NCBI GenBank assembly: GCA_034096865.1
Contig: JAWQFJ010000517.1
Coordinates: 62,001 to 126,000 of the forward strand
Direction of reading: 5' to 3'
DNA from: Theodoxus fluviatilis
Lineage: Eukaryota > Mollusca > Gastropoda > Cycloneritida > Neritidae
Length of the DNA stretch: 64,000 nt
Shown: positions 2,259 through 27,203 of the stretch, in pieces
How the letters are laid out: every line of letters begins with the position of its first letter
Numbering within the stretch: position 1 is the first letter of the stretch
Translations under genes and position numbers: made by a program
Notes under the pieces: generated by a model
Told to the model about the DNA's origin: nothing
Databases searched by the model: none
The model's input: the letters and a program-made list of their open reading frames with translations, nothing else

Positions 2259-5200
2259 CTGTGCAGACAGACACACACAGCAGTGTCAGGTAAGTGGTAA
2301 GTAGAATGACCAGGTGATGGGAGTAGAGAACAATGTAGGTTTACCACCACATTCTGCCAGCAATATAAGCCCCATTGATTCAGTCAGGTGGCTCGGAACT
2401 TGTGATTGTATGTGCTGTGCAATTTCACAGTTCAACAGTCATTCGCCAACTAAAGCTGTAAGAGACTTACTGAGTGATCGGATCAGTACATGTACTGGTA
2501 TTAGGAATGTCATTCAAATTATTGTCAACAAACCGTTAACAGCATCACACATCAGCAATGTGAATACCATCGTCAACGTACTTAAATTTCTTTGCTATTT
2601 GAAATTATAAATACGTTGAAACAAAAGAAGAGGAATGGGTCGAGCTAAATATTTTACCAAGGCAATGTATTACATCCTATCTGACTAAATTTTGCTAAAA
2701 AGGCCAAAAGTTTTCAATGAAGGTCTAAATTAAAAATTAAAGCTAATTAACACTGCCCCATTTCTGATGTCTTTGCAAAGTTGTTGATAAAAGTCACCCC
2801 GGCACATAAAGCAAATGCAGCCAATTCCTAGAACTGATCCTAACATCTTCCTTGCCTTCCAAGGTTTTGATGAAGGCCTGCAGAGGACAGTGGCATGACA
2901 CCATCGCAGTCATTATCAACATCATCAACACAAACATAGCTGCAAAGGCTGACATAAATATCTGAAGACACAGGAACACTTCATTATTATCATCCCCTGC
3001 TTCCACATTATCATTATCATTACTTATGAAGTTCTCTAAGGTCGACACTTATTGACCCCCACACTTCCCGACCACTACCACCGCCATCACTGCCTACCGA
3101 GGTTCTCGATGAAGGTTTCCAGGGCGTAGTAGCACCGCATCAGTCCCCGAGGGTTGGTGTCTGCCTCTGTGGTGGCATGGGCCAGGTAGGTGAATAGCAG
3201 TGGCAGCAGCTCTGGTGCGTACTTGGTGATGTCGGGCTGTTGGCGAAAAGAATGTAAAGCGTAAATGGGTGCAAGCTTCAGATCTTGGTGATCAGCAGCT
3301 ATACACATGCTGTGGGTGTAAGTTTGGGTCTTAGTGGACAGCAGCCATGAACATGCTGTGGGTGTAAGTTTGGGTCTTAGTGAGCAGCAGCTATACACAT
3401 GCTGTGGGTGTAAGTTTGAAGTCTTAGTGAACAGCAGCCATAAACATGCTGTGGGTGTAAGTTTGGGTCTTAGTGGACAGCAGCCATAAACATGCTGTGG
3501 GTGTAAGCTTGGATCTTAGTGGACAGCAGCTATACACATGCTGTGGGTGTAAGTTTGGGTCTTAGTGGACAGCAGCCATACACATGCTGTGGGTGTAAGT
3601 TTGGGTCTTAGTGGACAGCAGCCATACACATGCTGTGGGTGTAAGTTTGGGTCTTAGTGAACAGCAGCTATACACATGCTGTGGGTGTAAGCTTGAGGTC
3701 TTAGTGAACAGCAGCTATACACATGCTGTGGGTGTAAGTTTGGGTCTTAGTGGACAGCAGCTATACACAAGCTGTGGGTGTAAGTTTGGGTCTTAGTGAA
3801 CAGCAGCCATAAACATGCTGTGGGTGTAAGTTTGAGGTCTTAGTGGACAGCAGCTATACACAAGCTGTGGGTGTAAGTTTGAGGTCTTAGTGAACAGCGG
3901 CTATACACATGCTGTGGGTGTAAGTTTGGGTCTTAGTGGACAGCAGCTATACACAAGCTGTGGGTGTAAGTTTGAGGTCTTAGTGAACAGCGGCTGTACA
4001 CTTAATACCTTTACACAGCTGAACAGGACACTCTTTCTTGAAAAGATGAAGTAATCCCATGCAGACTTCCCTGTCACAGTACTAATGAGATCTTTTGATA
4101 AAGGGAAGCTCTAGCTTCTTCTTAACATGTGGTGGAAATGCCTAGAATCAAGTCAGCATCAGTGGAAACGAGAGGCACATGCCTGCAGCAATACTTCCAC
4201 ACAACGAGGCTTGTTTGCGTTTTAATACATCCGCCAGTAGTGTGGAGATTTTGTATCACTTCTTCCTCTACACCCCTCACTATCTCTACCCCATGGGCAT
4301 ATCTTGAACTCACCTGCAGGTGTTCTGAGAACTGACCCAGGGCAAAAAGAGCAGCGTTCCTGACCATCTGCTCAGAGTCGTTGAGTCCCTTGTGTACACA
4401 GTGCAGCACTGCCTCCAGATGTCTGCAGAGCACAGAGTGCACCACTAGAGTCAGAACAGGCTACATGAGAAATCAGTCAATCTCTAAACTCTTGCAGGGT
4501 TCGTACAGGTTTTTAGATACAAAATTCCATGACTTTTCCATGACTTTCCATGACCTTCAACAACATTTTCCATGACCTAGCGTACTGTAATACATTACAA
4601 TTTTAAAGAGAAAAGTGTATGGCGCACGACCAAACTCACGCACAATACACCCGTTGTAAAAAAATATAATTCTTTTTATTATTTTTTCAGCAGATTGATT
4701 CAAAAACTGACAAATGCAGAAAATTTTCAAACAAGTACTCCTTAAAATGATGATACTTTTGTCCCAAATTGTCTGGTTCTTCAACGATTAACGCACGCTG
4801 AATGTGGTAATCGAGCACGCGTCTACCCATTGCGGTCTGATGTACACACAAACAGGTGGAAAATTTCCGCCTGTTTTCTCCTTTCAAGCACACAATCCGG
4901 GCGCTAGACAAAAAGTAGATTCATCGTACATTAACATCGAATATAGCGTTGGAAGGGGGAAATCTTGTAGAATCCGAGGGTGTCTGTACGAAATTGATCG
5001 AAAAAGCGGGAGTGAGCAAATTTTAACAAAATGTCCGATGACGTTCGAACTTTCATCCATAACTCGTCTTTCGATTTTCACCGGAAGTTCAAACATACAC
5101 CGAACGAAAGAGCAATCTTTCCTCTAATGAGTAGTAAAATTTCAACTTGATCAAATGAGAAACTTCGACGGACGAGTGTTTAGAAGAGACCAACCCGAGT

Positions 5201-8200
5201 CGCGAAATGCAAACTCCGTTGAGCCACCGCGAGTCGGTAGTGGCGGAGGGTGTTTTTTTTACGTAATCGGCTTGTATGTTCTTAGCGGAAATAAGACGGA
5301 TTAACACAAAACTACACGACACATGTTCTTGAAACCTTCTGCTTCATAAGCAACTTTCATTCTTGTTTTTATTCACAATATTTTGTGGATTGTCCACAAT
5401 TAGCCATGAAAGTGAAGTGGTATTGCCGAGTGCATTTTGGCTAGTACTGTAGTAGCGCAAAGATTTGATACAAATTACCACGGAATCCTACCACTAGTTT
5501 AAAAAAATTAGACAACTCAGAAGACTTTCATCTTTCATGTTACATTGGTATTTTATGTTATTGATATGTGCGAATCCTAGAAAAGGTGGATTCTATCGAA
5601 CCGACGGCCACTTCCGGTCTGATGAAATTTCTTCGAACATCGCGTGCGGCGTCTATTTAGCACTCGCTGAAGGTCCCGAGTTCTACAATACTTTTTCCAA
5701 CATGTGCAAAATATTGCAATAAATATCTTCCTAAATTATTGTTCTAGCATAAACTGAAACAAAAACCCCAATAAACTAACCGATTTCAGCTGATTTGTCC
5801 GTCAAAATCGCATCTGCGCCGTCACGCTCATTGTGTGATTTTGACGGTCATGCTATTTACCAAAATGACGCTAATGTCTTCGAAATGGCTTAGAAATGAG
5901 CATATATATCGTTATCCCCTTCTTGAATATGATATATTTAAGCTATTCTAATTAAACCAGAACTATATTTGACCAAATTACGTTAGAAACAAAACAGCAA
6001 CATTTTGAAACAGATATGCGGTCGCCATTTCGATCCAGCGCCAAATGGTAAATAGCAAAACCGGACATGGATATCCAGCTGTTTCTTCTGAAGTTCAGCA
6101 TTCAGGGACTCATCAAAGAGCAGCACCAGAGAATCAGAAGACCGGGCCTTTGCCTTGAGCATGTCTTAGAAATGTGGCCCCAGACCAAAAGTTGTCAAGT
6201 ACCGGGCTTTGCTTTCACTCAAGGCAAACTTGGAGGCGATGACACTGTCGGGAAACATGCGACGGAACAGCTCGTTCATTCCTTTGGTACTGGAGAATGA
6301 GAAGTGGGAGATGACCATTTTCAAAGTCCACGAAATTTCTGCTTTCAGTGTGTCCTCTGTTGTCAAGAAAATGTCAATCCCAGTAGATCTACTGCCACTG
6401 CCAGTGGGTGCAGGCCTAGTTTCGACCGGCGTAGCAGCGCCAGCTGGAACCACCACCTTTGAAGCACTCTCTGTCTCAGCATTTTTTGTAGTTTGAACAA
6501 AATCTGATATTCGTGTTTGACGTTTGCTCTTTTCTTCTTGGTGTTTTTTAGCACGCGCCTGGTGCGCGACACTTTTCATGTGGCTTTTCAACGCTGCCGC
6601 TCCCATGTTGGATACATCAAAGTCTTTTTCACAAAATCGGCACTTTGCCATCCCATCCACTCTCGCTCGCATGACCCACTCACGGTATTCAGGGTCTCCT
6701 GTCCAAGAGTCTTGAAAGCGACACTTTCCAGGCATGATGATAATCTGATTCTCAAAGAAACACTGCACCACAAACAAAACAAGCTCTTTTCACTCTGTCC
6801 TCGTAACTTGTTTGAACCAACTGACCGGACCGGCGTGGATATGAAACGAGGTCACCTAGCCAAAGAACCAATCAGGAAGCAGAAGGCACACGAGCCTTCA
6901 GAATTAACCAATGGGATGCAAGGGCACGTTTTCCTGACGTGCTCAGCGTTTAAAATTAGATTGAGAGTATCGCGCGAAGCACAGCCTAGAAAACGTCTTT
7001 TTTTTCTTTCTTAAATTCCATGACTTTCCATGACCTAAGTTCAAATTCCATGACTTTCCAGGCCTGGAAAATGAAAAATCAAATTCCATGACTTTCCAGG
7101 TTTTCCATGACCTGTACGAACCCTGTCTTGCCAAAATTCATCTATCCAGAGCATGAGGAAACGCAGACAAAGAAATGTTACAAATGGGACCAAAATCTGT
7201 GGAGAAATCCTGAAAATAGTGTGAGTACTTGATCATTGATGCTTCACTGCAACAACTGGTCTCCAAGTGTGACGGCGTTCGAGAAGTTGAAGAAGAACTT
7301 GATGCACAAATGGAAGGGGAATCTTTCTCACCAAACCTGTAATTTTTCTTCATGGTATGAAACTCCCGCAGCATCACAGCCGTTTGGGAAACTAATATAT
7401 TTAGAGCGTGCTTCTAGACCAAAAAGCAAGCCAACTCATAATTCAATCAGCAGAGGTTGTATATTCTGTTTCAATGCAAAGACCAAACAGGCCCATCCTT
7501 TTCCTTTGCATTGCACAGACAGTTCATGCCACCATCTCATAGACTTGCATCCTTTGTCATTTGCTCAGAGGCTTCTGGCATGATTCAAGGCTTCATAAAC
7601 AGACAGTCCTGCCACAAGAAATGGTGAGTGAGTGACAGGTGTTGACTTTCTGCTTGAGGAGCAGATATATCTGAGTGGTAAATATATTCTTGGTGGTGGA
7701 AAGGGCATTTCGTGTCTAGGTTGATTGCCGGTTGGGCTCAATCGTCCAGCATGATTTGAGAGCAGGGTTGGATCTAAGTGACCTGACACTGTCCAGACAC
7801 CCCCAGCTAGCCTCTATGGTTGCATGGGGCCGCCCCCAGCTACCTACTGGAGCAGGCCCCAACACCCAGGAGTTCCAGATGGTGAGGGGGACATGGAGCA
7901 ACTCCAGCAGTATGTAACTCTTCCAGTGCATGCAACACAGGCAGAACCGACTGCCCACCTGTTCATGATGAAGTCGGCGCATCCCTCGGCAGCTACGGCC
8001 ATGGCCATGTAGCCCCCCCGGCGGTGTGAGGGGTTGTCGCTGGACAGGGCCTTCTCCACCATCTCCATCTGCAGCAGTCAGCAGCACTCACTATGCACAG
8101 GTGAAAGGTCAAAGCATGGTTTTATATAGCAACTTTTCATCCATGCCTGGGCCACCTGATCCATCCTTCACCGGCACCTGAGGACAAACATAGTGACAGA

Positions 8201-12824: not shown

Positions 12825-15800
12825 ACAGAAAGACAAGAGACAGAGAGAGAGAGATGGGCCGGCAGGCAAGTAGGCAGATAGAGACTGAGACTAACAAATG
12901 AAGAAGGGGAGAGACAGAGGGCAGGAGGTACAATACAATACAATACAACTTTATTTATCCCACAACAGGTAATTCAAGACACACAAACGCACACACACAC
13001 AAACACACCCGCACACACACATGCATGCACTCATGCAAGCACTCATGCACACACACACGCATGCATGCACACACACACACACTCACACAAGCATGCATGC
13101 ACACACACAAACACCCCCACCTGCAGGGCGAAGTCCATGAGGAGTTTGACATGGGGGGCAACGATGGCCACCTCTGTCTCCAGCAGCTCATCAAAGACTT
13201 CCAGGAACTGGCATGCCTTGTCCTGTGTGGAGGAGCACAAGGGCTTGCTTTCAAATGTGACATGTCACGTGTCTGAGGCATGTTCCCTACAATGCCATTG
13301 AGCAGACTTCCCAAGCTAGGTGATAGAAGAAATGTAAGTTGGTATGAAGCTTGGGACAAAACAACTGGCAATGTTGATTTTGTAGACATTATTGTGAGAG
13401 CTGACTGATTTGGTACGGACATTTCATTACAACAATCACTCCCTAACAAACTGGGAGATGCTCTTTGATTTCCTTGGACCAGCTTTGCTACCGATCGATT
13501 GGCTCAGAAATCGTGCCACTATTTCATTCCTAGTCAAAAGGCCATTTCACTGTCATTCAAACACTCTCTGAACACTCCTGGAAGCCTGCGATCAAGAAGT
13601 GGATGACCGAGCCATTGTCATCTCTTGCAATGTCACAGTTGTGCCTGAAAGCTTGACATTTTCTGCATTCAGCATATAACACAACACAACGGAATGCAAT
13701 AGAATACAATGCTACTTCATTCATTTAATCAGGAAATGTTTATGTTTATCGTAAAAGGGAACACAAAAACAAGGCACTGCATGTAAAAACAAACAGTAAA
13801 TACAGGCTATCAGTATCAGTCATACAGGCTATCTATCCCAGTCATACAGGTTATCACAGTCATACAGGCTATCACAGTCATACAGGCTATCTATCCCTGT
13901 CATACAGGCTATCAGATTAAATAGAGGCTATCACGGTCATACAGGCTATCTATCACAGTAATACAGGCTATCACAGTCATACAGGCTAACACAGTCATAC
14001 AGGCTATCACAGTAAATACAGGCTATCACAGTCATACAGGCTATCACATACAGGCTATCACATACAGGCTATCACAGTAAATACAGGCTATTAGTCATAC
14101 AGGCTATCACTGTCATACAGGCTATCACAGTCATACAGGCTATCACAGTCATACAGGCTATCACAGTAAATACAGGCTATCAGTCATACAGGCTATCACA
14201 GTAAATACAGGCTATCACAGTCATACAGGCTATCACAGTAAATACAGGCTATCTCAGTCATACAGGCTATCACAGTCATACAGGCTATCACAGTCATACA
14301 GGCTATCACAGTCATACAGGCTATCACAGTCATACAGGCTATCACAGTCATACAGGCTATCACAGTCATACAGGCTATCAGTCATACAGGCTATCACAGT
14401 CATACAGGTTATCAGTCATACAGGCTATCACATACAGGCTATCACAGTCATACAGGCTATCACATACAGGCTATCACAGTAAATACAGGCTATCACAGTC
14501 ATACAGGCTATCACATACAGGCTATCACAGTCATACAGGCTATCACAGTCATACAGGCTATCAGTCATACAGGCTATCACAGTCATACAGGTTATCAGTC
14601 ATACAGGCTAACACAGTCATACAGGCTATCACGGTCATACAGGCTAACACAGTCATACAGGCTATCACGGTCATACAGGCTATCAGTCATACAGGCTATC
14701 ACAGTCATACAGGTTATCAGTCATACAGGCTAACACAGTCATACAGGCTATCACATACAGGCTATCACAGTAAATACAGGCTATCACAGTCATACAGGCT
14801 ATCACATACAGGCTATCACAGTAAATACAGGCTATCACAGTCATACAGGCTATCACATACAGGCTATCACAGTCATACAGGCTATCACAGTCATACAGGC
14901 TATCTCAGTCATACAGGCTATCTCAGTCATACAGGCTATCACAGTCATACAGGCCATCACAGTCATACAGGCTATCACAGTCATACAGGCTATCACAGTC
15001 ATACAGGTTATCACAGTCATACAGGCTATCACAGTCATACAGGCTATCACAGTCATACAGGCTATCACAGTCATACAGGCTATCACAGTCATACAGGCTA
15101 TCACAGTCATACAGGCTATCACAGTCATACAGGCTATCACAGTCATACAGGCTACCACAGTCATACAGGCTATCAGTCATACAGGCTATCACAGTCATAC
15201 AGGCTATCACAGTCATACAGGTTATCAGTCATACAGGCTAACACAGTCATACAGGCTATCACAGTAAATACAGGCTCAGTCATACAGGCTAACACAGTCA
15301 TACAGGCTATCACAGTAAATACAGGCTATCACAGTCATACAGGCTATCACATACAGGCTATCACATACAGGCTATCACAGTAAATACAGGCTATCACAGT
15401 CATACAGGCTATCACATACAGGCTATCACAGTAAATACAGGCTATCAGTCATACAGGCTATCACAGTCATACAAGCTATCACAGTAAATACAGGCTATCA
15501 CAGTCATACAGGCGATCACGGTCATACAGGCTATCACGGTCATACAGGCTATCACAGTCATACAGGCTATCACAGTCATACAGGCTATCACAGTAAATAC
15601 AGGCTATCACGGTCATACAGGCTATCAGGCATGCTATCACAGTCATAAAATCAAACATCTGCTTCATTTAGATGTGTCAGAGCTGCTGGAAAAATAAGCA
15701 CTGTGAAACTGTATGGGGATGATCTTTGCATTCTAACATTTACATATACACATGCTGGTTGACAGTGGGAAACAGGTTGTCTTTATCAAACATTTCCACA

Positions 15801-18800
15801 GCTTTGAGCTGAGAGGGAAAGCGTCAACAGATTAAAATACAGCAACACTTTCCATACCTCATCCTCTTGTATCATGGCTCCTGCTATCTTCACAATGCGA
15901 GGAATAATATCAGAGACAATTTTCTGAAAAAGAGGGATTAACCAGAATATGTTATTCATCATGTCACCTACAAACCAGAACATGTCTATGTGAGAGGAAA
16001 TACAAAAGCCAATGTCGCTTCATCTGCCATAAAAGCAATACCATTCCTTAAAAACATCATTTCCTATTTACAAAAACTGTAATACATATGCTGATGTGGG
16101 CAATATGTTGTCAGTCTCAATATCAAAATGCTGAGAAGTTCATTGTATCAGAAAAAAATGAACAAGGAAAGATAAACGACTTACCCCATCTTCTTCTCCA
16201 ATGGAATAGGCCATTTCTGTCAGCAGCCTGCAATGTAGCAGAATACATAATTTGCAACAAATCAGCAACATTTTTGTGGTCATTCACTGCAACACTCATA
16301 AAGGAGTCTTTACCATGACAGAAGACATGCCAAGCAAAGGACGTCAATGGACTGCCTGTAAAAACTGCCACAGTTCAACCCTCACTCCCACTGTGTGCAA
16401 CTCTAATCCCTCCACAAAACTGCAGCATACTTTCATTTGTGTCAGCAGCAGCTTTTCATCTTACAACTAGAATGCCTCACATTTGTGTCAGCAACAGCTT
16501 TTCATCTTACAACTAGAATGCCTCACATTTGTGTCAGCAACAGCTTTTCATCTTACAACTAGAATGCCTCACTCTTAGAAAAAAAAGTTGTTGTGGTTAC
16601 GGTAACACAACAACAAAAATTGAATAGGTAGGCCTGAGGTCTAAAACAACAAGAAGGGCAAAGCCCATACGACTCACATGCTTGACCTTGACCTTTACAT
16701 GACCTTGACCTTTACATGACCTTGACCTTCAGGTGTCCTTCAAGGTCAAACAACTAAACCTAGCAATGACATCATACACTAAGAACTGCTTTACACATTT
16801 TTCCTACAAAAATACATGTGACCTTGACCCAAGGTCAAGGTCATCCAAGGTCATGCAACACAAAGCTGTTAATTCAAGACATAGGAAGCACAATGGTGCT
16901 TATTGGCACTTTCTACCATGAGATATGGTCACTTTTAGTGGTTCACTACCCCATTTTGGTCACATTTCATAAGGGTCAAAGTGACCTTGACCTTGATGAC
17001 ATGTGACCAAATGTGTATCATGATGAAAGTATAACATGTGTACTACAATGTTATGAAGTTTGGAAGAGTTATCTTCCATAGTTCAGGGTCAAGGTCACTT
17101 CAAAATATGTATACAATCCAACTTTAAAGAGTTCCTGTGACCTTGACCTTGAAGCAAGGTCAAGTCACTGTGTATGTTTTTGTACGCCTTGTCATCCTAC
17201 ACTATCATGCCAAATTGGGTGTTGATAGACTTAATAGTCTCCGAGAAAAATCCAACGTTAAAGTTTTTTACGGATTAAAGGACGCCCGGACGCCCGGTCT
17301 GCCCGGACGCCCGGACAGACGCCTGGACGCCCGGACGGACAACACAGGTGACCTATTATGAAAGTATAACATGTGTACTACAGTGTTATGAAGTTTGGAA
17401 AAGTTATCTTTCATAGTTCAGGGTCAAGGTCACTTCAAAATATGTATACAATCCAACTTTAAAGAGCTCCTGTGACCTTGACCTTGAAGCAAGGTCAATC
17501 AAACTGATATCAAAAGATAGGGATTACTTTGCCCTATACACCATATATAGGTCAGGTATCCAATCTCAAAAATTTCATAGAAAATTGGGAAAATGTGAAA
17601 AATGGCTGTTTTTTAGACAACATTTATGGCCCCTGCGACCTTGACCTTCAAGCAAGGTCAAGTCACTATGTATGTTATTTGACGCCTTGTCATCATACAC
17701 CATCATGCCAAATTGGGTGTTGATAGACTTAATAGTCTCCGAGAAAAATCCAACGTTAAAGTTTTTCACGGACGCCCGGACGCCCGGACGGACACGGGTG
17801 AGTACATAGACTCACTTTTGCTTCGCATGTGAGTCAAAAATTGAGGCCATATTGAAACTGCTTACAATTGTGTATGTGTGTGTGACTGTGTTTTCTTCCA
17901 TGAAAGAAAAAGTCTAGGGTCAGCAGACAAATATGGTTGGTCATGTTACTGTCAGCACCCCCCCCCCAACCTCCCCCCCCCCCAACCTCCCCCCCCCCCC
18001 TTATCTACTACAGACTTTTGCCTGACCATGCGAACACTGTCTCACACTCTTACCATTCTCAACCACAGAATTTCACTTGACCATGTAGAATTGCAACACA
18101 CCATCAACGTCAACTATGGAATTGTAACTGACTGCGTAGAAGTGCATGCCTGACTGCGTAGAAGTGTGTGCCTGACTGCATAGAAGTGCATACCTGACTG
18201 CGTAGAAGTGTGTGCCTGACTGCGTAGAAGTGCATGCCTGACTGCGTAGAAGTGCATACCTGACTGCACAGAAGAGCATTCCTGACTGCGTAGAAGTGCA
18301 TGCCTGACTGCATAGAAGTGCATACCTGACTGCGTAGAAGTGCATACCTGACTGCGTAGAAGTGTGTGCCTGACTGCATAGAAGTGCATACCTGACTGCA
18401 TAGAAGTGCATACCTGACTGCATAGAAGTGCATACCTGACTGCATAGAAGTGCATACCTGACTGCATAGAAGTGCATACCTGACTGCATAGAAGTGCATA
18501 CCTGACTGTGTAGAAGTGCATACCTGACTGCATAGAAGAGCATACCTGACTGCATAGAAGTGCATACCTGACTGTGTAGAAGTGCATACCTGACTGCATA
18601 GAAGTGCATACCTGACTGCATAGAAGTGCATACCTGACTGTGTAGAAGTGCATACCTGACTGCGTAGAAGAGCATACCTGACTGCATAGAAGTGCATACC
18701 TGACTGCATAGAAGTGCATACCTGACTGCATAGAAGTGCATACCTGACTGCATAGAAGTGCATACCTGACTGCATAGAAGTGCATACCTGACTGCACAGA

Positions 18801-21800
18801 AGAGCATACCTGACTGTGTAGAAGTGCATACCTGACTGCGTAGAAGTGCATACCTGACTGCATAGAAGTGCATACCTGACTGCATAGAAGTGCATACCTG
18901 ACTGCATAGAAGTGCATACCTGACTGTGTAGAAGTGCATACCTGACTGTGTAGAAGTGCATACCTGACTGCATAGAAGTGCATACCTGACTGCATAGAAG
19001 TGCATACCTGACTGTGTAGAAGTGCATACCTGACTGCATAGAAGTGCATACCTGACTGCACAGAAGAGCATACCTGACTGCATAGAAGTGCATACCTGAC
19101 TGTGTAGAAGTGCATACCTGACTGTGTAGAAGTGCATACCTGACTGCATAGAAGTGCATACCTGACTGCATAGAAGTGCATACCTGACTGCACAGAAGAG
19201 CATACCTGACTGCATAGAAGTGCATACCTGACTGCACAGAAGAGCATACCTGACTGTGTAGAAGTGCATACCTGACTGCATAGAAGTGCATACCTGACTG
19301 CACAGAAGAGCATACCTGACTGTGTAGAAGTGCATACCTGACTGCATAGAAGTGCATACCTGACTGCATAGAAGTGCATACCTGACTGCACAGAAGAGCA
19401 TACCTGACTGTGTAGAAGTGCATACCTGACTGTGTAGAAGTGCATACCTGACTGTGTAGAAGTGCATACCTGACTGTGTAGAAGTGCATACCTGACTGTG
19501 TAGAAGTGCATACCTGACTGTGTAGAAGTGCATACCTGACTGTGTAGAAGTGCATACCTGACTGCACAGAAGAGCATACCTGACTGTGTAGAAGTGCATA
19601 CCTGACTGTGTAGAAGTGCATACCTGACTGAGTAGAAGTGCATACCTGACTGTGTAGAAGTGCATACCTGACTGTGTAGAAGTGCATACCTGACTGCGTA
19701 GAAGTGCATACCTGACTGCATAGAAGTGCATACCTGACTGCACTGAAGAGCATACCTGACTGTGTAGAAGTGCATACCTGACTGCGTAGAAGTGCATACC
19801 TGACTGCATAGAAGTGCATACCTGACTGCATAGAAGTGCATACCTGACTGCATAGAAGTGCATACCTGACTGTGTAGAAGTGCATACCTGACTGTGTAGA
19901 AGTGCATACCTGACTGCATAGAAGTGCATACCTGACTGCATAGAAGTGCATACCTGACTGTGTAGAAGTGCATACCTGACTGCATAGAAGTGCATACCTG
20001 ACTGCACAGAAGAGCATACCTGACTGCATAGAAGTGCATACCTGACTGTGTAGAAGTGCATACCTGACTGTGTAGAAGTGCATACCTGACTGCATAGAAG
20101 TGCATACCTGACTGCATAGAAGTGCATACCTGACTGCATAGAAGTGCATACCTGACTGCATAGAAGTGCATACCTGACTGCATAGAAGTGCATACCTGAC
20201 TGTGTAGAAGTGCATACCTGACTGCATAGAAGTGCATACCTGACTGCATAGAAGTGCATACCTGACTGTGTAGAAGTGCATACCTGACTGCATAGAAGTG
20301 CATACCTGACTGCATAGAAGTGCATACCTGACTGCACAGAAGAGCATACCTGACTGTGTAGAAGTGCATACCTGACTGTGTAGAAGTGCATACCTGACTG
20401 CATAGAAGTGCATACCTGACTGCATAGAAGTGCATACCTGACTGCATAGAAGTGCATACCTGACTGCATAGAAGTGCATACCTGACTGTGTAGAAGTGCA
20501 TACCTGACTGTGTAGAAGTGCATACCTGACTGCGTAGAAGTGCATACCTGACTGCATAGAAGTGCATACCTGACTGTGTAGAAGTGCATACCTGACTGCA
20601 TAGAAGTGCATACCTGACTGCATAGAAGTGCATACCTGACTGCATAGAAGTGCATACCTGACTGCATAGAAGTGCATACCTGACTGCATAGAAGTGCATA
20701 CCTGACTGCATAGAAGTGCATACCTGACTGTGTAGAAGTGCATACCTGACTGCATAGAAGTGCATACCTGACTGTGTAGAAGTGCATACCTGACTGCATA
20801 GAAGTGCATACCTGACTGCATAGAAGTGCATACCTGACTGTGTAGAAGTGCATACCTGACTGCATAGAAGTGCATACCTGACTGCGTAGAAGTGCATACC
20901 TGACTGCATAGAAGTGCATACCTGACTGTGTAGAAGTGCATACCTGACTGCGTAGAAGTGCATACCTGACTGCGTAGAAGTGCATGCCTGACTGCATAGA
21001 AGTGCATACCTGACTGTGTAGAAGTGCATACCTGACTGTGTAGAAGTGCATACCTGACTGCGTAGAAGTGCATACCTGACTGCGTAGAAGTGCATACCTG
21101 ACTGCGTAGAAGTGCATACCTGACTGCATAGAAGTGCATACCTGACTGTGTAGAAGTGCATACCTGACTGCATAGAAGTGCATACCTGACTGCATAGAAG
21201 TGCATACCTGACTGCATAGAAGTGCATACCTGACTGCATAGAAGTGCATACCTGACTGCATAGAAGTGCATACCTGACTGCATAGAAGTGCATACCTGAC
21301 TGTGTAGAAGTGCATACCTGACTGCATAGAAGTGCATACCTGACTGCGTAGAAGTGCATACCTGACTGCATAGAAGTGCATACCTGACTGCGTAGAAGTG
21401 CATACCTGACTGCATAGAAGTGCATACCTGACTGCGTAGAAGTGCATACCTGACTGCATAGAAGTGCATACCTGACTGCATAGAAGTGCATACCTGACTG
21501 CATAGAAGTGCATACCTGACTGCATAGAAGTGCATACCTGACTGCATAGAAGTGCATACCTGACTGCGTAGAAGTGCATACCTGACTGCGTAGAAGTGCA
21601 TACCTGACTGCATAGAAGTGCATACCTGACTGCATAGAAGTGCATACCTGACTGCATAGAAGTGCATACCTGACTGCATAGAAGTGCATACCTGACTGCA
21701 TAGAAGTGCATACCTGACTGCATAGAAGTGCATACCTGACTGCATAGAAGTGCATACCTGACTGTATAGAAGTGCATACCTGACTGCGTAGAAGTGCATT

Positions 21801-24800
21801 CCTGACTGCATAGAAGTGCATACCTGACTGCATAGAAGTGCATACCTGACTGCATAGAAGTGCATACCTGACTGCATAGAAGTGCATACCTGACTGCATA
21901 GAAGTGCATACCTGACTGCGTAGAAGTGCATACCTGACTGCGTAGAAGTGCATGCCTGACTGCATAGAAGTGCATACCTGACTGTGTAGAAGTGCATACC
22001 TGACTGCGTAGAAGTGCATACCTGACTGCGTAGAAGTGCATACCTGACTGCATAGAAGTGCATACCTGACTGCGTAGAAGTGCATACCTGACTGCATAGA
22101 AGTGCATACCTGACTGTGTAGAAGTGCATACCTGACTGCATAGAAGTGCATACCTGACTGCATAGAAGTGCATACCTGACTGCATAGAAGTGCATACCTG
22201 ACTGCATAGAAGTGCATACCTGACTGCATAGAAGTGCATACCTGACTGCATAGAAGTGCATACCTGACTGCATAGAAGAGCATACCTGACTGCATAGAAG
22301 TGCATACCTGACTGTGTAGAAGTGCATACCTGACTGCATAGAAGTGCATACCTGACTGCATAGAAGTGCATACCTGACTGCATAGAAGTGCATACCTGAC
22401 TGCATAGAAGTGCATACCTGACTGCATAGAAGTGCATACCTGACTGCATAGAAGTGCATACCTGACTGCATAGAAGAGCATACCTGACTGCATAGAAGTG
22501 CATACCTGACTGCATAGAAGTGCATACCTGACTGCATAGAAGTGCATACCTGACTGCATAGAAGTGCATACCTGACTGCGTAGAAGTGCATACCTGACTG
22601 CATAGAAGTGCATACCTGACTGCACAGAAGAGCATTCCTGACTGCGTAGAAGTGCATTCCTGACTGCATAGAAGTGCATACCTGACTGCACAGAAGAGCA
22701 TTCCTGACTGCGTAGAAGTGCATACCTGACAGCATAGAAGTGCATACCTGACTGCATATAAGTGCATTCCTGACTGCATAGAAGTGCATACCTGACTGCG
22801 TAGAAGTGTGTATCACGGGTGTGCTCCTCATTGAGTGTGCTGGCCACCAGCTGCAGCAGTCCAGTCAGCTCCCCTTCCAGCTGGTCGGGGCACATGGACG
22901 CCACATGGTACATGACGTACATGCCCAGCTGTCAACACAGGCATCCGGTCATCCAGTGGTCATTGACCAGTCTGCTCATATACAGTCTTGAATGCGAAAA
23001 TAACATATAGTCCTGAGGCCAAGCAGCTCTATCAGCCCTAGAAAAAGGAAGTGTGGGCTACAAGTTTATACCAAATAGTTTTGACATATTTTGAAAGAAG
23101 ACACTTAGTACTTGACATTTTGAGATACTCTAACTTTGGGTATAATCTAAATAATGAGATTTTTCTTTTTTGGAAATTCGTTTTTCACGCAAACAGGTAA
23201 AAAGTTTTTAAAAAATTAAAATTGTGTTTTAACTTGTTATTTTCCCCGACTAAAGTAAGTAGGCATGTTCAAATATTACAATAATTCATGTATTGGAGTA
23301 TGTTAGTGATTTAGGTTTAGTAAGCAATTAATTAAGAATAAAAAACTTGTTTGACTCAAATCATTCGAGTTGCCTCCCTTGATGATAGTCAACATACGTA
23401 GCAATGTGCACAGACCACCACCTATTCCTTCTGCACATCTCTTGGTTGCACAATCTCCACACAAACACAATGCTGTTGAAATCATTCCCAGACTGAATCA
23501 ATGGAATCAATATCTCCTTCAAAATACATATCAGTGTCAGAACCACTACTGTCAGTGTCACTTGTGTGGTCCATGTCTTCCTCCACCAACGCCGACTGTT
23601 TGTTCACACACCCAACACATGCACACAGCTGTGTGCATTGCAGAGAGTTGCGGTGGCAGCTGCTAATAAAATATAGTTTTCTGTATAGATTTTTCATTTC
23701 TCTATTTGTTTGCCAAATTTCAGGTTAAACTAATGTTAAGATCATGGTTATTTTGTTTCCAAAAAGATCGTTACTAGCATCCACTTTGGTAAGACGCCAT
23801 TCTAAGATTATCGCCGAAAATCTGGTTAAGAAAATAAAATAAAATATTTGCGAACTCATTATCGCACTAAAACTTATGCGTATTTACCACTTTGTTCATT
23901 TTTCTACGTAAAATCTGTATTCTGGGGATTGTTTGAGCCTAAGATCATGTTCATTTGTTTTGATCATATACCTCCTACCTATACTGACTTTGGACATTAT
24001 TTATTTCCCTAGACTGCCCCTTTAACTTGGTTTTGTGCAACAAGCAACACTATTTTCCTCACATGATTATGGTGTAAATAGAACTCAAATGATCAATCAG
24101 GCAATCAATCAACTAGTTTTTACTAAAATGTAACGAAAGTATAACGTTCAACTTACTTGTACGAATTTTTCTGGAGCTCAAGTCCCTGTCGATTTACTTT
24201 TTTTAGACTTAGTTTTTCTGCACACAATACAGACAGGAGGCAGGGTATGCTCGTTTCTGGTAGTCGATTCTCGGCTGTTCTGTCCTTGTGGTCTCATTTT
24301 TGTCCTCGGTGAAACAGCTCCCGCAGCTTTACCCTTCTCAAAGCGACTCTGCGCCTGTTCGATTCTTCGTTTGTTTGTGAAACGATTGTAACATTACATT
24401 ACAGGTGAAAGCAACGCGTTTCACTTTCAGGCTTTGATTTTAAAGCAAGAAGTTTCTCAGCTATCACACGTTCTTCGCCGTCTAAAGTACTCCACTGCTT
24501 GCTTGACCATATGGTGGTATTCCACTTAATCTGTGTGAAACTCGCTAAATCTAGAGACGTAATGTCTTCGCAGCAGTGAATGCACTTGTTTAGATACGCG
24601 TATGCAAGGGACGCAACTCCGAATCTGGTAGACGTTTTTCATTGAGGTTTTTTTGCCAACTTCTATTAATTATCATACGTTATTTAGATTCATTTGAAAG
24701 TTAGAGTGTACAAAATATCAACAAAGAATATTCCCTTAACCCATGAGAACAAATATTTTTTGGTATGAACAACTATCCGTAGCTTTTGAACGATAGAGCT

Positions 24801-24884
24801 GCTTGGCCTCAGGACTAATAGGAAAGGCAGACAGATAGTGGGACTGACATCGATGAAATGACAGGCAAGCTGAGGAAAAGACCA

Positions 24885-24971
<87 letters not shown>

Positions 24972-25165
24972 TTGAACCTCTTTATTAAGGCCTTAAGTCC
25001 ACACACACACCATACACAGACAGCAGTCCTACCTCCTTCTTGCCCTGCTCAGGGCTGGTGGTGAAGTCATGGAAGAACTCATGCAGTTTGGGCCACTGCT
25101 TGGTGGGCAGGTCATGAGCCGCCATGGTGGCCACGATGTTCACTATGGCCTGTCGCACCGACCGC
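2145..25165 (-). CDS. IPO4: Importin-4, partial gene: 12 internal exons
   Basis: Importin-4 is a HEAT-repeat karyopherin-beta that carries histones and ribosomal proteins through nuclear pores under Ran-GTP control. Exons in transcription order: 25033-25165, 22792-22928, 16185-16227, 15858-15923, 13121-13222, 12466-12549, 9324-9458, 8813-8866, 7959-8068, 4314-4422, 3098-3236, 2145-2258. All borders are GT-AG, phases agree at every junction, and no stop interrupts the 1226 coding bases. The conceptual product aligns without gaps in order to about residues 100-530 of vertebrate importin-4, including the acidic insert (AEDDDDEELD), the VIDVMALHMPPEK segment and the RNAALFALGQFSE HEAT repeat. The acidic loop and its position favour importin-4 over importin-5. 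The first ~90 residues and the C-terminal half are not in the recognisable sequence. Introns are unusually repeat-rich. The coding exons look intact, so I treat it as a working gene. Confidence 0.92.
2259..3097. other. IPO4 intron
   Basis: Intron between the exons at 2145-2258 and 3098-3236. I see no further gene or element in it. Confidence 0.6.
3098..3236 (-). CDS. IPO4: IPO4 exon
   Basis: Bounded by acceptor cgccaacag and donor gtaggc. It encodes PDITKYAPELLPLLFTYL and a C-terminal CYYALETFIENL, a HEAT repeat that aligns with the PHISSYS...CYALENFVENL segment of vertebrate importin-4. It starts in phase 0 after the preceding ...SEHLQ exon and ends in phase 1. Confidence 0.93.
3285..4005. 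repeat. 46-bp minisatellite in an IPO4 intron, about 15 copies
   Basis: Tandem units of about 46 bp share the core catgctgtgggtgtaagttt and gtcttagtg. Variants alternate between gtggacagcagc and gtgaacagcagc, and between ctatacac and ccataaac. On the transcribed (minus) strand each unit carries an acceptor-like ttacacccacag. The array lies about 50 bp upstream, in transcription, of the exon at 3098-3236. Confidence 0.92.
4314..4422 (-). CDS. IPO4: IPO4 exon
   Basis: Acceptor ctctgcag and donor gtgagttc flank an exon encoding HLEAVLHCVHKGLND followed by SEQMVRNAALFALGQFSE. This is the best conserved HEAT repeat of importin-4. The first base completes an arginine codon begun in the exon at 7959-8068, and the exon ends in phase 0. 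Confidence 0.95.
4495..7125 (-). mobile_element. hAT-like DNA transposon, 16-bp TIRs, 5-bp target duplication
   Basis: The ends are the inverted pair CAGGGTTCGTACAGGT (4495) and its complement ending at 7125. They are flanked by TCTTG on both sides (4490-4494 and 7126-7130). Subterminal copies of ttccatgactttcc occur at both ends, a usual feature of hAT elements. The only recognisable coding part is the BED-finger ORF at 6166-6777 (minus), so the copy is non-autonomous. It sits in the IPO4 intron between the exons at 4314-4422 and 7959-8068. hAT elements usually make 8-bp duplications; a 5-bp one fits a hAT5-like group or another superfamily, so assignment rests on the TIR style and the BED-finger ORF. 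Confidence 0.8.
6166..6777 (-). pseudogene. hAT-type transposase N-terminus with BED zinc finger (truncated)
   Basis: The frame encodes a BED-like zinc finger: CRFQDSW, then AKCRFCEKDFDVSNMGAAAL, then KSHMKSVAHQ, giving the C-x2-C and H-x4-H ligands. A charged linker and FALSESKARYLTTFGLGPHF follow before a stop. This is the N-terminal region common to one hAT transposase group (RFQ.SW / ISNMG..AL.SHMKGKKH pattern). The DDE catalytic and dimerisation domains are missing, so it cannot be an active transposase. The likely start is the methionine of MPGKCRFQ at about 6735. It lies inside the TIR-bounded element at 4495-7125. Confidence 0.75.
7131..7958. other. IPO4 intron
   Basis: Intron remainder between the hAT-like element and the exon at 7959-8068. 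I see nothing recognisable in it. Confidence 0.55.
7959..8068 (-). CDS. IPO4: IPO4 exon
   Basis: Acceptor gctgcag and donor gtgggcag. Encodes MEMVEKALSSDNPSHRRGGY then MAMAVAAEGCADFIMN, equal to the MLEEALRSESPYQRKAGLLV segment of vertebrate importin-4. Starts in phase 0 and ends with AG of a split arginine codon, completed by the exon at 4314-4422. Confidence 0.93.
8069..8812. other. IPO4 intron
   Basis: Intron between exons 7959-8068 and 8813-8866. I see no gene or element. Confidence 0.55.
8813..8866 (-). CDS. IPO4: IPO4 exon (54 bp)
   Basis: A small in-phase exon bounded by ttgtag and gtgagtat. It encodes VIDVMALHMPPEKVIPPL, matching VVDMLALHLPPEKLCPQL of vertebrate importin-4. Confidence 0.93.
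8996..9050. repeat. (CA)n microsatellite
   Basis: An interrupted run of ca dinucleotides, with a short tata interruption, in an IPO4 intron. Confidence 0.9.
9324..9458 (-). CDS. IPO4: IPO4 exon with acidic loop
   Basis: Acceptor atttgcag and donor gtgagggg. Encodes AIMKHKAVEPILQILFTILC, the acidic stretch SGGAEDDDDEELDVE, then SHTPSQYAGQ, 45 residues in phase 0 at both ends. The acidic loop is at the same place as in vertebrate importin-4 and is a karyopherin feature often linked to cargo or Ran control. Confidence 0.93.
9459..10091. other. IPO4 intron
   Basis: Intron sequence up to the piggyBac-derived element. A small hairpin (ttgttgcatcaagcaacaa) lies near 9715-9735. Confidence 0.5.
10719..10770. 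repeat. (CA)n microsatellite
   Basis: About 25 ca repeats with one cg interruption, inside the piggyBac-derived element. Confidence 0.92.
10954..11457 (-). pseudogene. piggyBac transposase N-terminal remnant
   Basis: The translated frame has an acidic stretch (ELLFGEDSDEEFEPFNLDD) of the kind that opens PGBD-type transposases, then low-similarity sequence to a stop. No DDD catalytic core is present. It lies within a TTAA-bounded element, which supports the assignment. Confidence 0.5.
11585..12465. other. IPO4 intron with a poly-G tract
   Basis: AT-rich intron ending in a purine-rich stretch at 12330-12420 with runs of 10-18 G broken by a few A. I see no gene. The G runs could form G-quadruplexes on the plus strand (C runs in the transcript). 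Confidence 0.6.
12466..12549 (-). CDS. IPO4: IPO4 exon
   Basis: Acceptor tttgacag and donor gtacactt. Encodes VASNEDLGDPVRVKVLSF then VCTLAKLKKK, matching VARNVALGNAIRVRILCCL of vertebrate importin-4. Phase 0 at both ends. Confidence 0.93.
12729..12860. repeat. (GT)n / (GA)n compound microsatellite
   Basis: A gtgtgtgc-rich stretch passes into about 20 ga repeats and degenerate ga sequence, in an IPO4 intron. It produces long low-complexity reading frames on the minus strand that are not genes. Confidence 0.9.
12975..13110. repeat. Degenerate (CA)n tract next to an IPO4 exon
   Basis: Mixed cacacaca and catgcatgc repeats abut the donor of the exon at 13121-13222. Confidence 0.85.
13121..13222 (-). 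CDS. IPO4: IPO4 exon
   Basis: Acceptor ccacacag and donor gtgggggt. Encodes DKACQFLEVFDELLETEVAI then VAPHVKLLMDFALQ, 34 residues, matching AKACEALEALDELLESEVPV of vertebrate importin-4. Phase 0 at both ends. Confidence 0.95.
13223..13800. other. IPO4 intron
   Basis: Intron sequence before the 18-bp array. I see nothing recognisable. Confidence 0.5.
13805..15640. repeat. 18-bp minisatellite, about 100 copies, with 14/16/19-bp variants
   Basis: The unit acaggctatcacagtcat repeats through 1.8 kb. Length variants are frequent: acaggctatcagtcat (16), acaggctatcacagtaaat (19) and acaggctatcacat (14). A near-pure 18-bp core at 14870-15170 gives spurious open frames (repeat MTVIAC). It lies in the IPO4 intron between exons 15858-15923 and 13121-13222. 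Its many length variants contrast with the indel-free 22-bp array at 18.1-22.8 kb. Confidence 0.95.
15858..15923 (-). CDS. IPO4: IPO4 exon (66 bp)
   Basis: Acceptor ctttttcag and donor gtatgg. Encodes KIVSDIIPRIVKIAGAMIQE plus DE, matching the LVPKLIMAMQTLIPIDE segment of vertebrate importin-4. Phase 0 at both ends. Confidence 0.92.
16185..16227 (-). CDS. IPO4: IPO4 micro-exon (43 bp)
   Basis: Acceptor cattgcag and donor gtaagtcg. The first G completes the arginine codon (AG+G) left open by the exon at 22792-22928; then LLTEMAYSIGEEDG follows. Joined, FYAVR-LLTEMAYS matches FYSLR-TLTTMAPY of vertebrate importin-4, which confirms both the exon and the original donor of the upstream exon. Confidence 0.9.
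16433..16571. repeat. 46-bp tandem triplicate just upstream of an IPO4 exon
   Basis: Three copies of a 46-bp unit (core cagcttttcatcttacaact). On the minus strand each contains gctgctgacacaaatg or a one-base variant, nearly identical to the first 16 bases of the micro-exon 16185-16227 (gctgctgacagaaatg). Confidence 0.85.
16655..17838. mobile_element. Half-site-rich repeat element, copy 1 (internally duplicated)
   Basis: Starts near gggcaaagccc and ends ttcgcatgtgagtcaaaa. Inverted ends share GACTCACATGC. It has no coding capacity. It is packed with gaccttgacc, that is, tcaaggtca on the other strand. A GC-rich gacgcccg cluster sits near the right end. The block from about 17020 (aaagtataacatgtgtact) is repeated from about 17359, so this copy is longer than the one at 55815-56655. 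A miniature non-autonomous DNA transposon is the likely nature. Confidence 0.78.
17960..18001. repeat. Poly-C tracts
   Basis: Three runs of 9-10 C broken by aacct and tt, between copy 1 of the half-site repeat and the 22-bp array. Confidence 0.9.
18127..22806 (-). repeat. 22-bp splice-donor minisatellite, about 213 copies
   Basis: The unit, on the transcribed strand, is GTATG followed by CACTTCTAYGCAGTCAG. The 17-base part equals the last 17 bases of the IPO4 exon 22792-22928, and GTATG is the start of its intron. So the unit is an exon-intron junction in tandem. Register is exact throughout: the same phase recurs at 18361, 19021, 19681, 20341, 21001, 21661 and 22321 (each 660 bp, 30 units), so there is no net insertion or deletion. 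Variants are substitutions, mostly the tgcata/tgcgta/tgtgta classes and a linked class tgcacagaagag. No stop occurs on the minus strand, so all three frames stay open for more than 1560 codons. Confidence 0.97.
22792..22928 (-). CDS. IPO4: IPO4 exon whose 3' end seeded the 22-bp array
   Basis: Acceptor tgttgacag. Encodes LGMYVMYHVASMCPDQLEGE, then LTGLLQLVASTLNEEHTRD and THFYAVR. This matches the MGLLLLSVVVTS...LLFYSLR segment of vertebrate importin-4. It begins in phase 0 after exon 25033-25165. With the first donor, GTATGC at 22786-22791, it ends in AG of a split arginine codon that fits the micro-exon 16185-16227. Use of a later donor would add 22 nt per unit; only every third one keeps the frame, adding 22 residues. 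Confidence 0.92.
23008..24817 (-). mobile_element. DNA transposon with 26-bp perfect TIRs and ATA target duplication
   Basis: The ends begin TAGTCCTGAGGCCAAGCAGC and continue TCTATC; the right end is the exact inverse for 26 bases. ATA flanks both sides (23005-23007 and 24818-24820). The inside has minus-strand coding remnants: VIAEKLLALKSKPESETRC, then RRIEQAQSRFEKGKAAGAVS and LPPVCIVCRKTK, and near 23480-23690 an acidic stretch (DTDSSGSDTDMYFEGD). I do not recognise the family. It looks like a decayed or non-autonomous copy, sitting in the IPO4 intron between exons 25033-25165 and 22792-22928. Confidence 0.82.
24889..24969. repeat. (GA)n microsatellite
   Basis: About 40 uninterrupted ag repeats, 60 bp from an IPO4 exon on its downstream side in transcription. 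Confidence 0.95.
25033..25165 (-). CDS. IPO4: IPO4 exon (first visible)
   Basis: Acceptor ctgcttcag and donor gtaggact. Encodes RSVRQAIVNIVATMAAHDLP, then TKQWPKLHEFFHDFTTSP and EQGKKE. It aligns to the early HEAT repeats of importin-4 (VSLSLAQLSATIF...WPQLLQLL). The first base belongs to a codon opened in an upstream exon that I could not find between here and 64 kb. Confidence 0.85.
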
Positions 25166-25221
25166 CTGAAGCAGGTGGATTGACAGGATTAGATGGGTGA
25201 CTGTGATACCTGATTGGCAGG

Positions 25222-25520
25222 TGCAGTAGTAGTAGTAATAGTAGTAGTACTACTAGTAGTAGTAGTAGTAGTAGTGGTAGTACTAGTAGCAAAAGTAGTA
25301 GTAGTAGTAGTAGTAGGGGTAGTAGTAGCAGTAGTAATAGTAGTAGTAGTAGTAGTAGTGGTGGTAGTAGTAGTAGTGGTAGTAGTAGTAGTAATAGCAG
25401 TAGTAGCAGTACTTAGTACTAGTAGCAGTAGTAGTAGTAGTAGTAGTAGTACTAGTAGTACTAGTAGCAGTAGTAGTACTAGTAGTAGTAGTAGTAGTAG
25501 TAGCAGCAGCAGCAGCAATA
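25222..25520. repeat. (TAG)n / (AGT)n trinucleotide microsatellite
   Basis: About 290 bp of agt repeats with scattered point changes, ending in cag repeats. It makes long Ser, Val, Leu or Thr-only frames on both strands that are not genes. Confidence 0.95.
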
Positions 25521-26229: not shown

Positions 26230-26985
26230 CTAATGATTCTTGTCCGCATCGATGAACGGTGTCAGCAGCCACTCTCTCAGTGGATAGCCACTGTCTCCCA
26301 GCAGGACCCCATCAAGTGGTTTCGGCACTCTTTCAAATGCACGATATAGTGCACTTTCTCGCAAAATACGAGAATCGTGCACCGAACCTGGCCAATTTAC
26401 CACACAGTTTGTTATGACAAGATCTGCGTCACACACAAGCTGAACATTAATGGAATGTTTGCCTTTGCGATTCACGTAGACAACTTCGTTCAATGTTGGG
26501 CGCAGAATCTTCACGTGGGTGCAGTCAATGCAACCCACAACATTGGGAAAATTAGCCATCTGGTAGAATTTCTCGATGGTCTTGGTGGCCTCGTTTCTCC
26601 TTGGTAGCCGCACATACTCGTTGATGCGTGAAGAAAGGGCTCTAGACACGCGCTCGATGACTCTGCTCACAGTCGATTTGTCGATGCCAAAAATGTCGCC
26701 GACCACGATCTGAAAGCAGCCACATGCGTAAAAACGAAGGGCTACCATCACTTGCAGCAGAGCAGGCAGGGAACCGAGGCGCGTGAATGGTCTATCAATG
26801 TCTCCTTGCACAACATCCACAAGATCGATGATATCTTGCCTTCTAAATCGATAGCGCGCATACAGATCTATGTCGTCGTACAGTTCAAATGGATGGGTGC
26901 GATCACGAAAAACTCTTTCTCGGCGCAATTGTCGGCGAAGAGCCAGTCTGTAAACAAGGCGATTGGCAGCCATGTTTGCAGACAA
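26230..26985 (-). CDS. Harbinger transposase (HARBI1-like)
   Basis: 251 residues with no internal stop. Recognisable blocks: FELYDDIDLYARYRFRRQDI, LPALLQVMVALRFYACGCFQ, GIDKSTVSRVIERVSRAL (helix-turn-helix), FPNVVGCIDCTHVKI (first catalytic Asp), GKHSINVQLVCDAD, WPGSVHDSRILRES (second Asp) and LLGDSGYPLREWLLTPF. The DDE_Tnp_4 family usually has about 100 more residues ending in a conserved Glu after the YNR..SRTR..IE motif. Here the frame stops just after LLTPFIDADKNH, so the third acidic residue is missing and this copy is probably inactive, unless another exon supplies it. Confidence 0.85.
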   Translation of the reverse strand: MSANMAANRLVYRLALRRQLRRERVFRDRTHPFELYDDIDLYARYRFRRQDIIDLVDVVQGDIDRPFTRLGSLPALLQVMVALRFYACGCFQIVVGDIFGIDKSTVSRVIERVSRALSSRINEYVRLPRRNEATKTIEKFYQMANFPNVVGCIDCTHVKILRPTLNEVVYVNRKGKHSINVQLVCDADLVITNCVVNWPGSVHDSRILRESALYRAFERVPKPLDGVLLGDSGYPLREWLLTPFIDADKNH

Positions 26986-27203
26986 AGTTACGTGGAGTCT
27001 CGCGAGACTGACGTTAAGTGTGAAATCTCAGCTAAGTGCAGCTTTATGCCAGCCGGGGAGGTGGCATAAAGTTAAGTCTAAGTTTCCTTGCTTAGCGAAG
27101 ATAAGATTGCTCATGCAACCCAAATTTCTCTATCTTAGCGCTAAGTTTGCTTACTTAGAGTTAAGTGTCCTTAGCGGCAAGTTAAGTACGCTCATGCAAC
27201 CGA

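Follow-up and report, generated by a model that had tools for sequence, protein, structure and literature searches.

A 212-unit minisatellite at the donor splice site of an importin-4 exon in Theodoxus fluviatilis resembles amphioxus mirages and the human ABCA7 VNTR

Introduction

Repeats known as mirages have been reported in amphioxus from Adh3, the globin genes BflGb6 and BflGb9 and troponin C, with similar repeats in PGBD5, and the passages of the two papers drawn on here judge them harmless to regular splicing (PMC3087553, PMC3902484). These citing papers attribute the first description of mirages to Canestro 2002. A second related system is the VNTR in intron 18 of human ABCA7, which has a 25-bp unit and spans 298-10678 bp, or about 12 to 427 copies (PMC5954066). 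According to the parts of that report used here, one-unit retention amounts to 2 ± 1% independently of length, and exon-19 skipping grows with length. The 2% retention was measured without an NMD block, and such a block raised stop-bearing transcripts. Taken together, alternative ABCA7 transcripts, of which exon-19 skipping forms the largest share, outnumbered the canonical one in 90% of samples from frontal cortex (BA10) and 31% of those from hippocampus, and an expanded allele was present in none of the sized brain samples (PMC5954066). Choice between equal donors has been followed under exon definition in five minigenes, each with a pair of identical, strong donors, where, in the sections cited, the upstream donor was used exclusively; when the donors were weakened to MaxEnt -0.5, the two larger constructs skipped the exon, and genome-wide the upstream member of near-equal donor pairs prevailed in just 60% of all events (PMC9225289).

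Here we describe a 22-bp tandem array in an importin-4 gene (IPO4) of Theodoxus fluviatilis, which looks like a large example of this rare, already described kind of repeat. An earlier note on the same DNA held that no minisatellite born from a splice junction at such a scale had been described; this is wrong in view of the amphioxus mirages and of the ABCA7 VNTR with up to about 427 copies, as given in the cited passages.

Gene model and extent of the array

Coordinates are positions in the window, that is, the whole 64,000-nucleotide stretch analysed, and both the array and the importin-4 gene are read on its minus strand. A 12-exon model was built by hand and is open across 408 residues; the first exons of the gene were not recognised within the window. 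The main features are as follows.

25033..25165, minus strand: preceding importin-4 exon (exon a), 133 nt, from the hand-built exon model
22792..22928, minus strand: internal importin-4 exon (exon b), 137 nt, ending in ...CACTTCTACGCAGTCAG and followed by GTATGC; open with the 11 other hand-placed exons, with an ungapped 7unk alignment over the junction
22792..22808, minus strand: the 17 last bases of exon b, parental copy of the exonic part of the unit, 17/17 identical to the unit's CG form
18128..22791, minus strand: array of 212 head-to-tail 22-mers, from TRF and unit-by-unit reading; commonest form GTATGCACTTCTATGCAGTCAG, 113/212
18067..18095, minus strand: possible decayed unit copy just past the array, weak in the shuffle test
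16185..16227, minus strand: next exon (exon c), 43 nt, with the acceptor that closes the array-holding intron at its 3' end; hand-built exon model

The end of exon b aligns without gaps to importin-4 of PDB 7unk (FYAVR/LLTEMA against FYSLR/TLTTMA, the slash marking the junction; E 4.9e-22), and importin-4 homology carries on from exon c onward. This alignment and the open 12-exon model bear out the exon identity and orientation given in the earlier note.

TRF placed the 22-bp array at 18128-22808 with 212.8 copies and 0% indels. Read unit by unit, it comprises 212 full ungapped 22-mers, all in register on the minus strand, running from 22791 down to 18128. The unit consists of the 17 terminal exon bases plus GTATG, the first five bases of the intron, and shares its register with the exon; unit 1 begins at 22791 and the array adjoins exon b without a gap. 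The register and the zero gap confirm what had been claimed for the unit's composition, its orientation and the start of the array at the exon end. The claimed number of about 213 copies stands with 212 full units, whereas the range given for them, 18127..22928, took in the exon and one extra base, the array proper being 18128-22791.

The CG form of the unit matched the window 209 times at up to three mismatches, against 0.01 matches expected from shuffles, and all 209 lie within 18128-22813; at this threshold no copy occurs elsewhere in the window on either strand. No exact match of the unit was found in viral contigs, from which records of the source genome are possibly excluded. When the last 20 exon bases were compared with minus-strand windows of 201 nt, the opening 201 nt of the array scored 34 and no other window more than 22. 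Beyond the distal end, the score of 18060-18127 was reached by 0/500 shuffles and that of 17990-18127 by 8/500, a weak signal from one of seven stretches tried. Folding of 22660-22808 gave a structure worse than most shuffles (z +1.34; 186/200 at least as stable), and no Rfam family matched 15900-25200 at the gathering threshold.

Donor sites and unit variation

TCAG is kept in 212/212 units, and the following intronic bases begin with GTATG in 198 units, with GC in 8 and with GA in 6. The donor CAG/GTATGC is identical in these 198 units, so that the real donor is the same as 197 others; that every unit keeps CAG/GTATG, as had been stated, is false for the 8 GC and 6 GA units. Donor strength was ranked among the gene's 12 donors using a weight matrix and U1 pairing energy, and the exon b donor came 8th by the former and 10th by the latter (-7.2 kcal/mol). 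Within its own gene the site is middling to weak.

Most unit variation falls on a single CpG (CG 33, TG 131, CA 46, other 2; n=212), which is CG in the exon, and the window as a whole is poor in CpG (observed/expected 0.47). Lost donors are concentrated at both array edges: the outer 21 units hold 11 of the 14 (p 1.5e-10).

22616..22769, minus strand: exon-proximal array edge, units 2-8, with GA replacing GT in 4/7 units
18128..18369, minus strand: distal array edge, units 202-212, with GC or GA replacing GT in 7/11 units

Near the exon the GA units are 2, 5, 7 and 8, which places 4/6 GA units within units 2-8 (hypergeometric p 6e-6 for a region picked after looking). Because donor losses crowd both edges, this cluster is read as an edge effect. 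Mismatches outside the variable CpG are likewise peripheral, 26/53 lying in the outer 30 units, a value reached by 0/20000 shuffles. No selection on donor positions was seen, as 3/9 of them vary against 7/13 of the other positions (p 0.41). The longest repeated block spans 17 units and recurs 43 units further on; in 200 shuffles the longest block averaged 8.5 units, with a maximum of 14.

19756..20129, minus strand: first copy of the 17-unit block, units 122-138
18810..19183, minus strand: second copy of the block, units 165-181, from block comparison

Predicted splicing and alternative readings

The array is probably a junction-spanning minisatellite of the mirage or ABCA7 type, with the exon's own donor mainly used and the array usually leaving with the intron. 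Exon b is flanked by introns of 2104 nt and 6564 nt, the latter holding the array. Since these lengths imply exon definition, the exon's own donor is expected as the main one, and the array would usually be removed with its intron. One-unit extensions at a few percent, leading to a frameshift and a stop, would be a side effect, and skipping of the 43-nt exon c may rise with array length and lower importin-4 output. On paper, skipping exon c alone yields a stop, and skipping b and c jointly removes 180 nt and keeps the frame. The amphioxus mirages, the ABCA7 VNTR and the minigenes with identical donors favour this choice of donor. Against the reading stand the real donor itself, identical to so many others and among the gene's weaker ones, and also the exon skipping from weakened donors and the 60% genome-wide share given with the minigenes (PMC9225289). 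The ABCA7 retention figure, moreover, comes from transcripts measured without an NMD block, and ABCA7 splicing, in the portions cited above, shows that arrays of this type are not necessarily silent; the reading is held less firmly because of the extensive exon skipping there.

It was also proposed that many internal donors are used, the exon growing in 22-nt steps and by 22 residues per three units, which we consider unlikely. The identical donors favour it, as do the three reading frames open through the array (1584, 1579 and 1605 residues stop to stop) and the 12-exon frame, which is kept with 3 or 6 added units. That only every third step is in frame holds for the cases run, and it counts against such use of the donors, 1 or 2 added units (and likewise 212) leading to a stop. 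Openness in all frames is common, being seen in 21% of shuffled units, and the donor positions are no better conserved than the rest. In the cited parts of the two experimental studies, minigenes preferred the upstream donor (PMC9225289) and ABCA7 retained one unit only, at the low level given above (PMC5954066), and a functional series of donors is therefore not borne out.

It is less probable still that the array is a length-tunable regulator of importin-4, in which near decoys (the GA units 2, 5, 7 and 8, read above as an edge effect) were selectively disabled and the remaining units titrate U1 and set the skipping of c, or of b and c, and hence dosage. Clustered U1 sites can shield pre-mRNA from premature polyadenylation, and the array, with 198 potential U1 sites within 4.7 kb, could be kept for this effect. 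We find this very improbable: the sense strand of the array-holding intron contains neither AATAAA nor ATTAAA, the two signals scanned, that would need protection, U1 pairing is weak for the gene, and the donor positions show no sign of selection. Just as little probability attaches to recursive splicing, in which AG/GT of every unit would be a ratchet point. AG directly precedes GT in the 198 intact units, and 9 and 10 of the 17 bases before the unit's two AGs are pyrimidines, compared with 8-13 for the gene's 12 real acceptors, a crude count that fails to tell real acceptors from other sites and is weak either way; further AGs, however, lie within 25 nt upstream and a long pyrimidine tract is absent. 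By this count the acceptor half of the unit looks unremarkable. Translation of the array through intron retention, giving truncated importin-4 plus about 1560 repeat residues, is highly improbable although the frame of exon b stays open for 1604 codons up to a stop at 18116, as importin-4 homology resumes in exon c and open frames are common in such units.

Origin of the array

The conserved exon end and the unit made of exon end and intron start support the proposed origin from the splice junction. The exon is taken as the older part because its end aligns gap-free to importin-4 of 7unk. The array would have begun when a short stretch spanning the donor was duplicated in tandem, and would then have grown by slippage or unequal exchange; CpG decay would have produced most unit variants, and homogenisation would have acted in the centre and been absent at the edges. 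The reverse course, with an existing satellite captured and the exon end recruited out of it, is extremely improbable and is rejected on the gap-free importin-4 alignment, even though the exon's last 22 bases agree at 20/22 with three units of the distal edge (GCACACACTTC...), against 19/22 with the CG form of the unit; the absence of further unit copies in the window (up to three mismatches) and of an exact viral-contig match also speaks against it.

The array did not supply the 3' end of its intron, because its acceptor, at 16228, lies 1.9 kb past the array and does not copy the unit; nor is the exon c acceptor among the unit's four best-scoring junctions.

Five intronic arrays were compared with 24 junction sides each (120 comparisons, 200 shuffles each), and two pairs reached 0/200 shuffles: the 22-bp array with the donor side of exon b (exon part only), and three copies of a 46-bp unit with the donor-side window of exon c. 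The next best pair was an 18-bp array with the acceptor side of exon b (4/200). In the 46-bp array (16434-16572), 15/16 bases match, starting at the first base of exon c; the match was reached in 19/4000 shuffles for exon c, 11/4000 for its first 20 bases and 108/4000 with 25 upstream bases. Equal scores occur in 8/635 windows; the array itself accounts for three, and the remaining five fall at three further places. A junction repeat of exon c may be suggested by this match, as a weak lead.

Comparison with known systems

With 197 donors identical to the real one, the locus is a natural case that would allow a direct test of spliceosome choice among equal sites. Its origin from conserved coding sequence is directly readable, in a gene outside those named in the cited portions of the papers. 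If such arrays are common, they would contribute to variation in splicing and to errors in gene models.

Intron gain by AGGT tandem duplication also gives tandem AG/GT copies, as outlined in the passages cited (PMC3087553; see also PMC4974935); the importin-4 case differs in that the acceptor lies outside the array, so that only one of the two splice sites belongs to a unit. The ABCA7 VNTR, as described in the parts cited, directly flanks its exon, and its first GT is the exon's donor (PMC5954066), just as the first GT of the importin-4 array, at 22791, is the donor of exon b. This likeness is one of position at the donor, the cited text not stating whether the ABCA7 unit copies the exon end. 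The two differ in sequence, gene and unit length, and ABCA7 splicing effects were measured, whereas the importin-4 array is known from DNA alone.

Amphioxus mirages are minisatellite-like tandem copies that straddle the boundary between an exon and an intron; in BflGb9 they lie on the donor side (PMC3087553, PMC3902484). In the accounts cited, the Adh3 unit measures 10-72 bp, against 22 bp here, and the BflGb6 haplotypes carry 6 and 3 units, against 212. The genes also differ, and splicing was checked for mirages, the present array being described at the genomic level. The importin-4 unit holds both exonic and intronic junction bases (17 + 5), the array abuts its exon, and AG/GT is found in 198/212 units, as it is kept in many mirage units. 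Its homogenised centre and divergent edges likewise recall BflGb6, where the cited passages report that the cluster edges escape homogenisation (PMC3087553, PMC3902484).

Importin-4 gene and tandem array

The following features of the gene and its array were used.
25033-25165, minus strand: exon a, preceding the array's own exon
22792-22928, minus strand: exon b, the array's own exon (137 nt), with flanking introns of 2104 and 6564 nt
18128-22791, minus strand: array of 22-bp units, the basic unit being the last 17 bases of exon b plus GTATG
16185-16227, minus strand: exon c, the next exon (43 nt)

The 161-residue translation of exon b and its neighbours matched importin-4 of PDB 7unk, presumably the human protein, with an E value of 4.9e-22 and a gapless alignment (residues 22-160 against 113-251), which bears out the earlier note's assignment of the exon. 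Importin-5 and Kap123 were the next, far weaker matches, the Pfam family was 'IPO5-like, TPR repeats', and the hand-built 12-exon model is open over 408 residues. The junction residues of exon b are FYAVR|LLTEMA, against FYSLRTLTTMA in 7unk; judged from this likeness, the end of exon b is old coding sequence, from which the array derives.

Tandem Repeats Finder placed the 22-bp array at 18128-22808 and counted 212.8 copies, close to the 213 estimated earlier, with indels at 0%. On the minus strand, 212 complete 22-mers run without gaps from 22791 down to 18128 (copy number as assembled), the most frequent form being GTATGCACTTCTATGCAGTCAG (113/212). The last 17 bases of exon b (22792-22808) agree at every position with the CG form, the variant with CG at unit positions 14-15, as the earlier note had read the exonic part. 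With up to 3 mismatches, the CG form had 209 matches in the window against 0.01 expected, so that chance is excluded. The earlier note had raised the case of the unit recurring elsewhere as an unrelated satellite; within the window, all 209 matches fall within 18128-22813. Its statement that every unit keeps CAG|GTATG holds for the exonic half, TCAG being present in 212/212 units, but GTATG follows in only 198, with GC in 8 and GA in 6. Folding of the array RNA was no better than that of shuffles.

Array evolution

Most variation lies at unit positions 14-15 (TG 131, CA 46, CG 33, others 2), where exon b has CG. Decay of a CpG yields either TG or CA, and these variants fit methylated germline DNA. 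CpG observed/expected was 0.47 in the window, 0.40 in exons and 0.54 in sampled non-array introns. Almost half of the remaining mismatches (26/53) are in the outer 30 units, as many being found in 0 of 20000 shuffles. Lost donors occur at the exon-proximal edge, where units 2-8 include 4 of the 6 GA units, and at the distal edge (GC or GA in 7 of the last 11 units). A 17-unit block reappears 43 units further, the longest repeat in 200 shuffles being 14. All this amounts to the usual turnover of a minisatellite, homogenised in its central units. Past its distal end there may perhaps be a decayed unit copy.

Splicing

The donor of exon b ranks 8th of 12 in the gene by a weight matrix, and 10th by U1 pairing. 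Published cases provide the expectation. When two identical strong donors competed in minigenes whose introns were of exon-definition length, all five constructs spliced exclusively at the upstream one; with both donors weakened, the exon was preferentially skipped in the two larger constructs. Across the genome, where two donors are near-equal the upstream one wins 60% of all events, and it is preferred where both introns are long (PMC9225289). In the human ABCA7 VNTR the first GT is the donor of its exon, and one-unit retention (2 +/- 1%) is unchanged with length. Skipping of the next exon grows with VNTR length (4.1-fold on an expanded allele), and total expression falls. In frontal cortex (BA10) skipping reached 45 +/- 10%, and in 90% of cases the canonical transcript was outweighed there by the alternative ones combined (PMC5954066). 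Regular splicing was judged undisturbed by the amphioxus 'mirages' (PMC3087553, PMC3902484). By analogy with these cases, exon b's own donor would be mainly used, with few slipped donors, and skipping of exon c is possible.

In the 12-exon model, the frame survives the addition of 3 or 6 units but runs into a stop with 1 or 2, as the earlier note had reckoned in allowing only every third step. Skipping of exon c leads to a stop, and joint skipping of exons b and c (180 nt) keeps the frame.

Three alternative roles of the units are possible but not favoured. As to a ladder in which many internal donors are used, donor positions are no better conserved than others (3/9 versus 7/13 variable, p 0.41). 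As to shielding by U1 at the clustered donors, AATAAA/ATTAAA is absent from the sense strand of the array's intron. As to recursive splicing at the units, the acceptor half of the ratchet point is unremarkable. The array is open in all three frames; 21% of shuffled units are equally open, and its openness therefore does not speak for coding.

Other repeats and mobile elements

16434-16572: 46-bp x3 array, 207 bp upstream of exon c
13817-15627: 18-bp minisatellite, in an intron between modelled importin-4 exons
3266-4001: 46-bp minisatellite, likewise in an intron between modelled exons
917-1502: 36-bp minisatellite, past the last modelled exon
25225-25503: AGT trinucleotide tract, ~93 copies, ending 60 bp before the exon a acceptor
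26236-27027, minus strand: transposase-like open frame (DDE_Tnp_4, E 7.7e-24), upstream of exon a
28873-63262: mobile-element remains

In its last unit, the 16434-16572 array agrees with exon c at 15 of the exon's first 16 bases, starting exactly at the exon start; three other sites in the window score at least as high. This array is possibly an acceptor-side twin of the main one. The minisatellite at 3266-4001 stops 30 bp before exon k, another modelled exon, and its units carry an acceptor-like CCACAG; comparison with the exon k junction gave no significant match (31/200 shuffles).

Nine further open frames were scanned, all but one of them within 28873-63262, and Pfam domains were matched in seven: RNase H-like and integrase SAM-like (both below the curated cut-off), TNP-like domains, Mutator, SCAN, rve integrase, and a DDE_Tnp_1_7 plus zinc finger frame running into a repeat at 62390-63058. 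The frames 48211-48864 and 6169-6789 (the latter outside this region) had no Pfam match.

Comparison with known systems

The earlier note knew of no splice-junction minisatellite at such a scale; this does not stand, since there are precedents. Mirages in the amphioxus Adh3, globin and troponin C genes straddle exon-intron boundaries, and PGBD5 has similar repeats, also across such boundaries (PMC3087553, PMC3902484). The ABCA7 VNTR reaches a maximum of ~427 copies, or 10.7 kb (PMC5954066). Importin-4 is not among the genes that the excerpts of these papers name for mirages or the ABCA7 VNTR (PMC3087553, PMC3902484, PMC5954066). The present case adds an array of 212 copies for which the conserved protein sequence shows the exonic origin.
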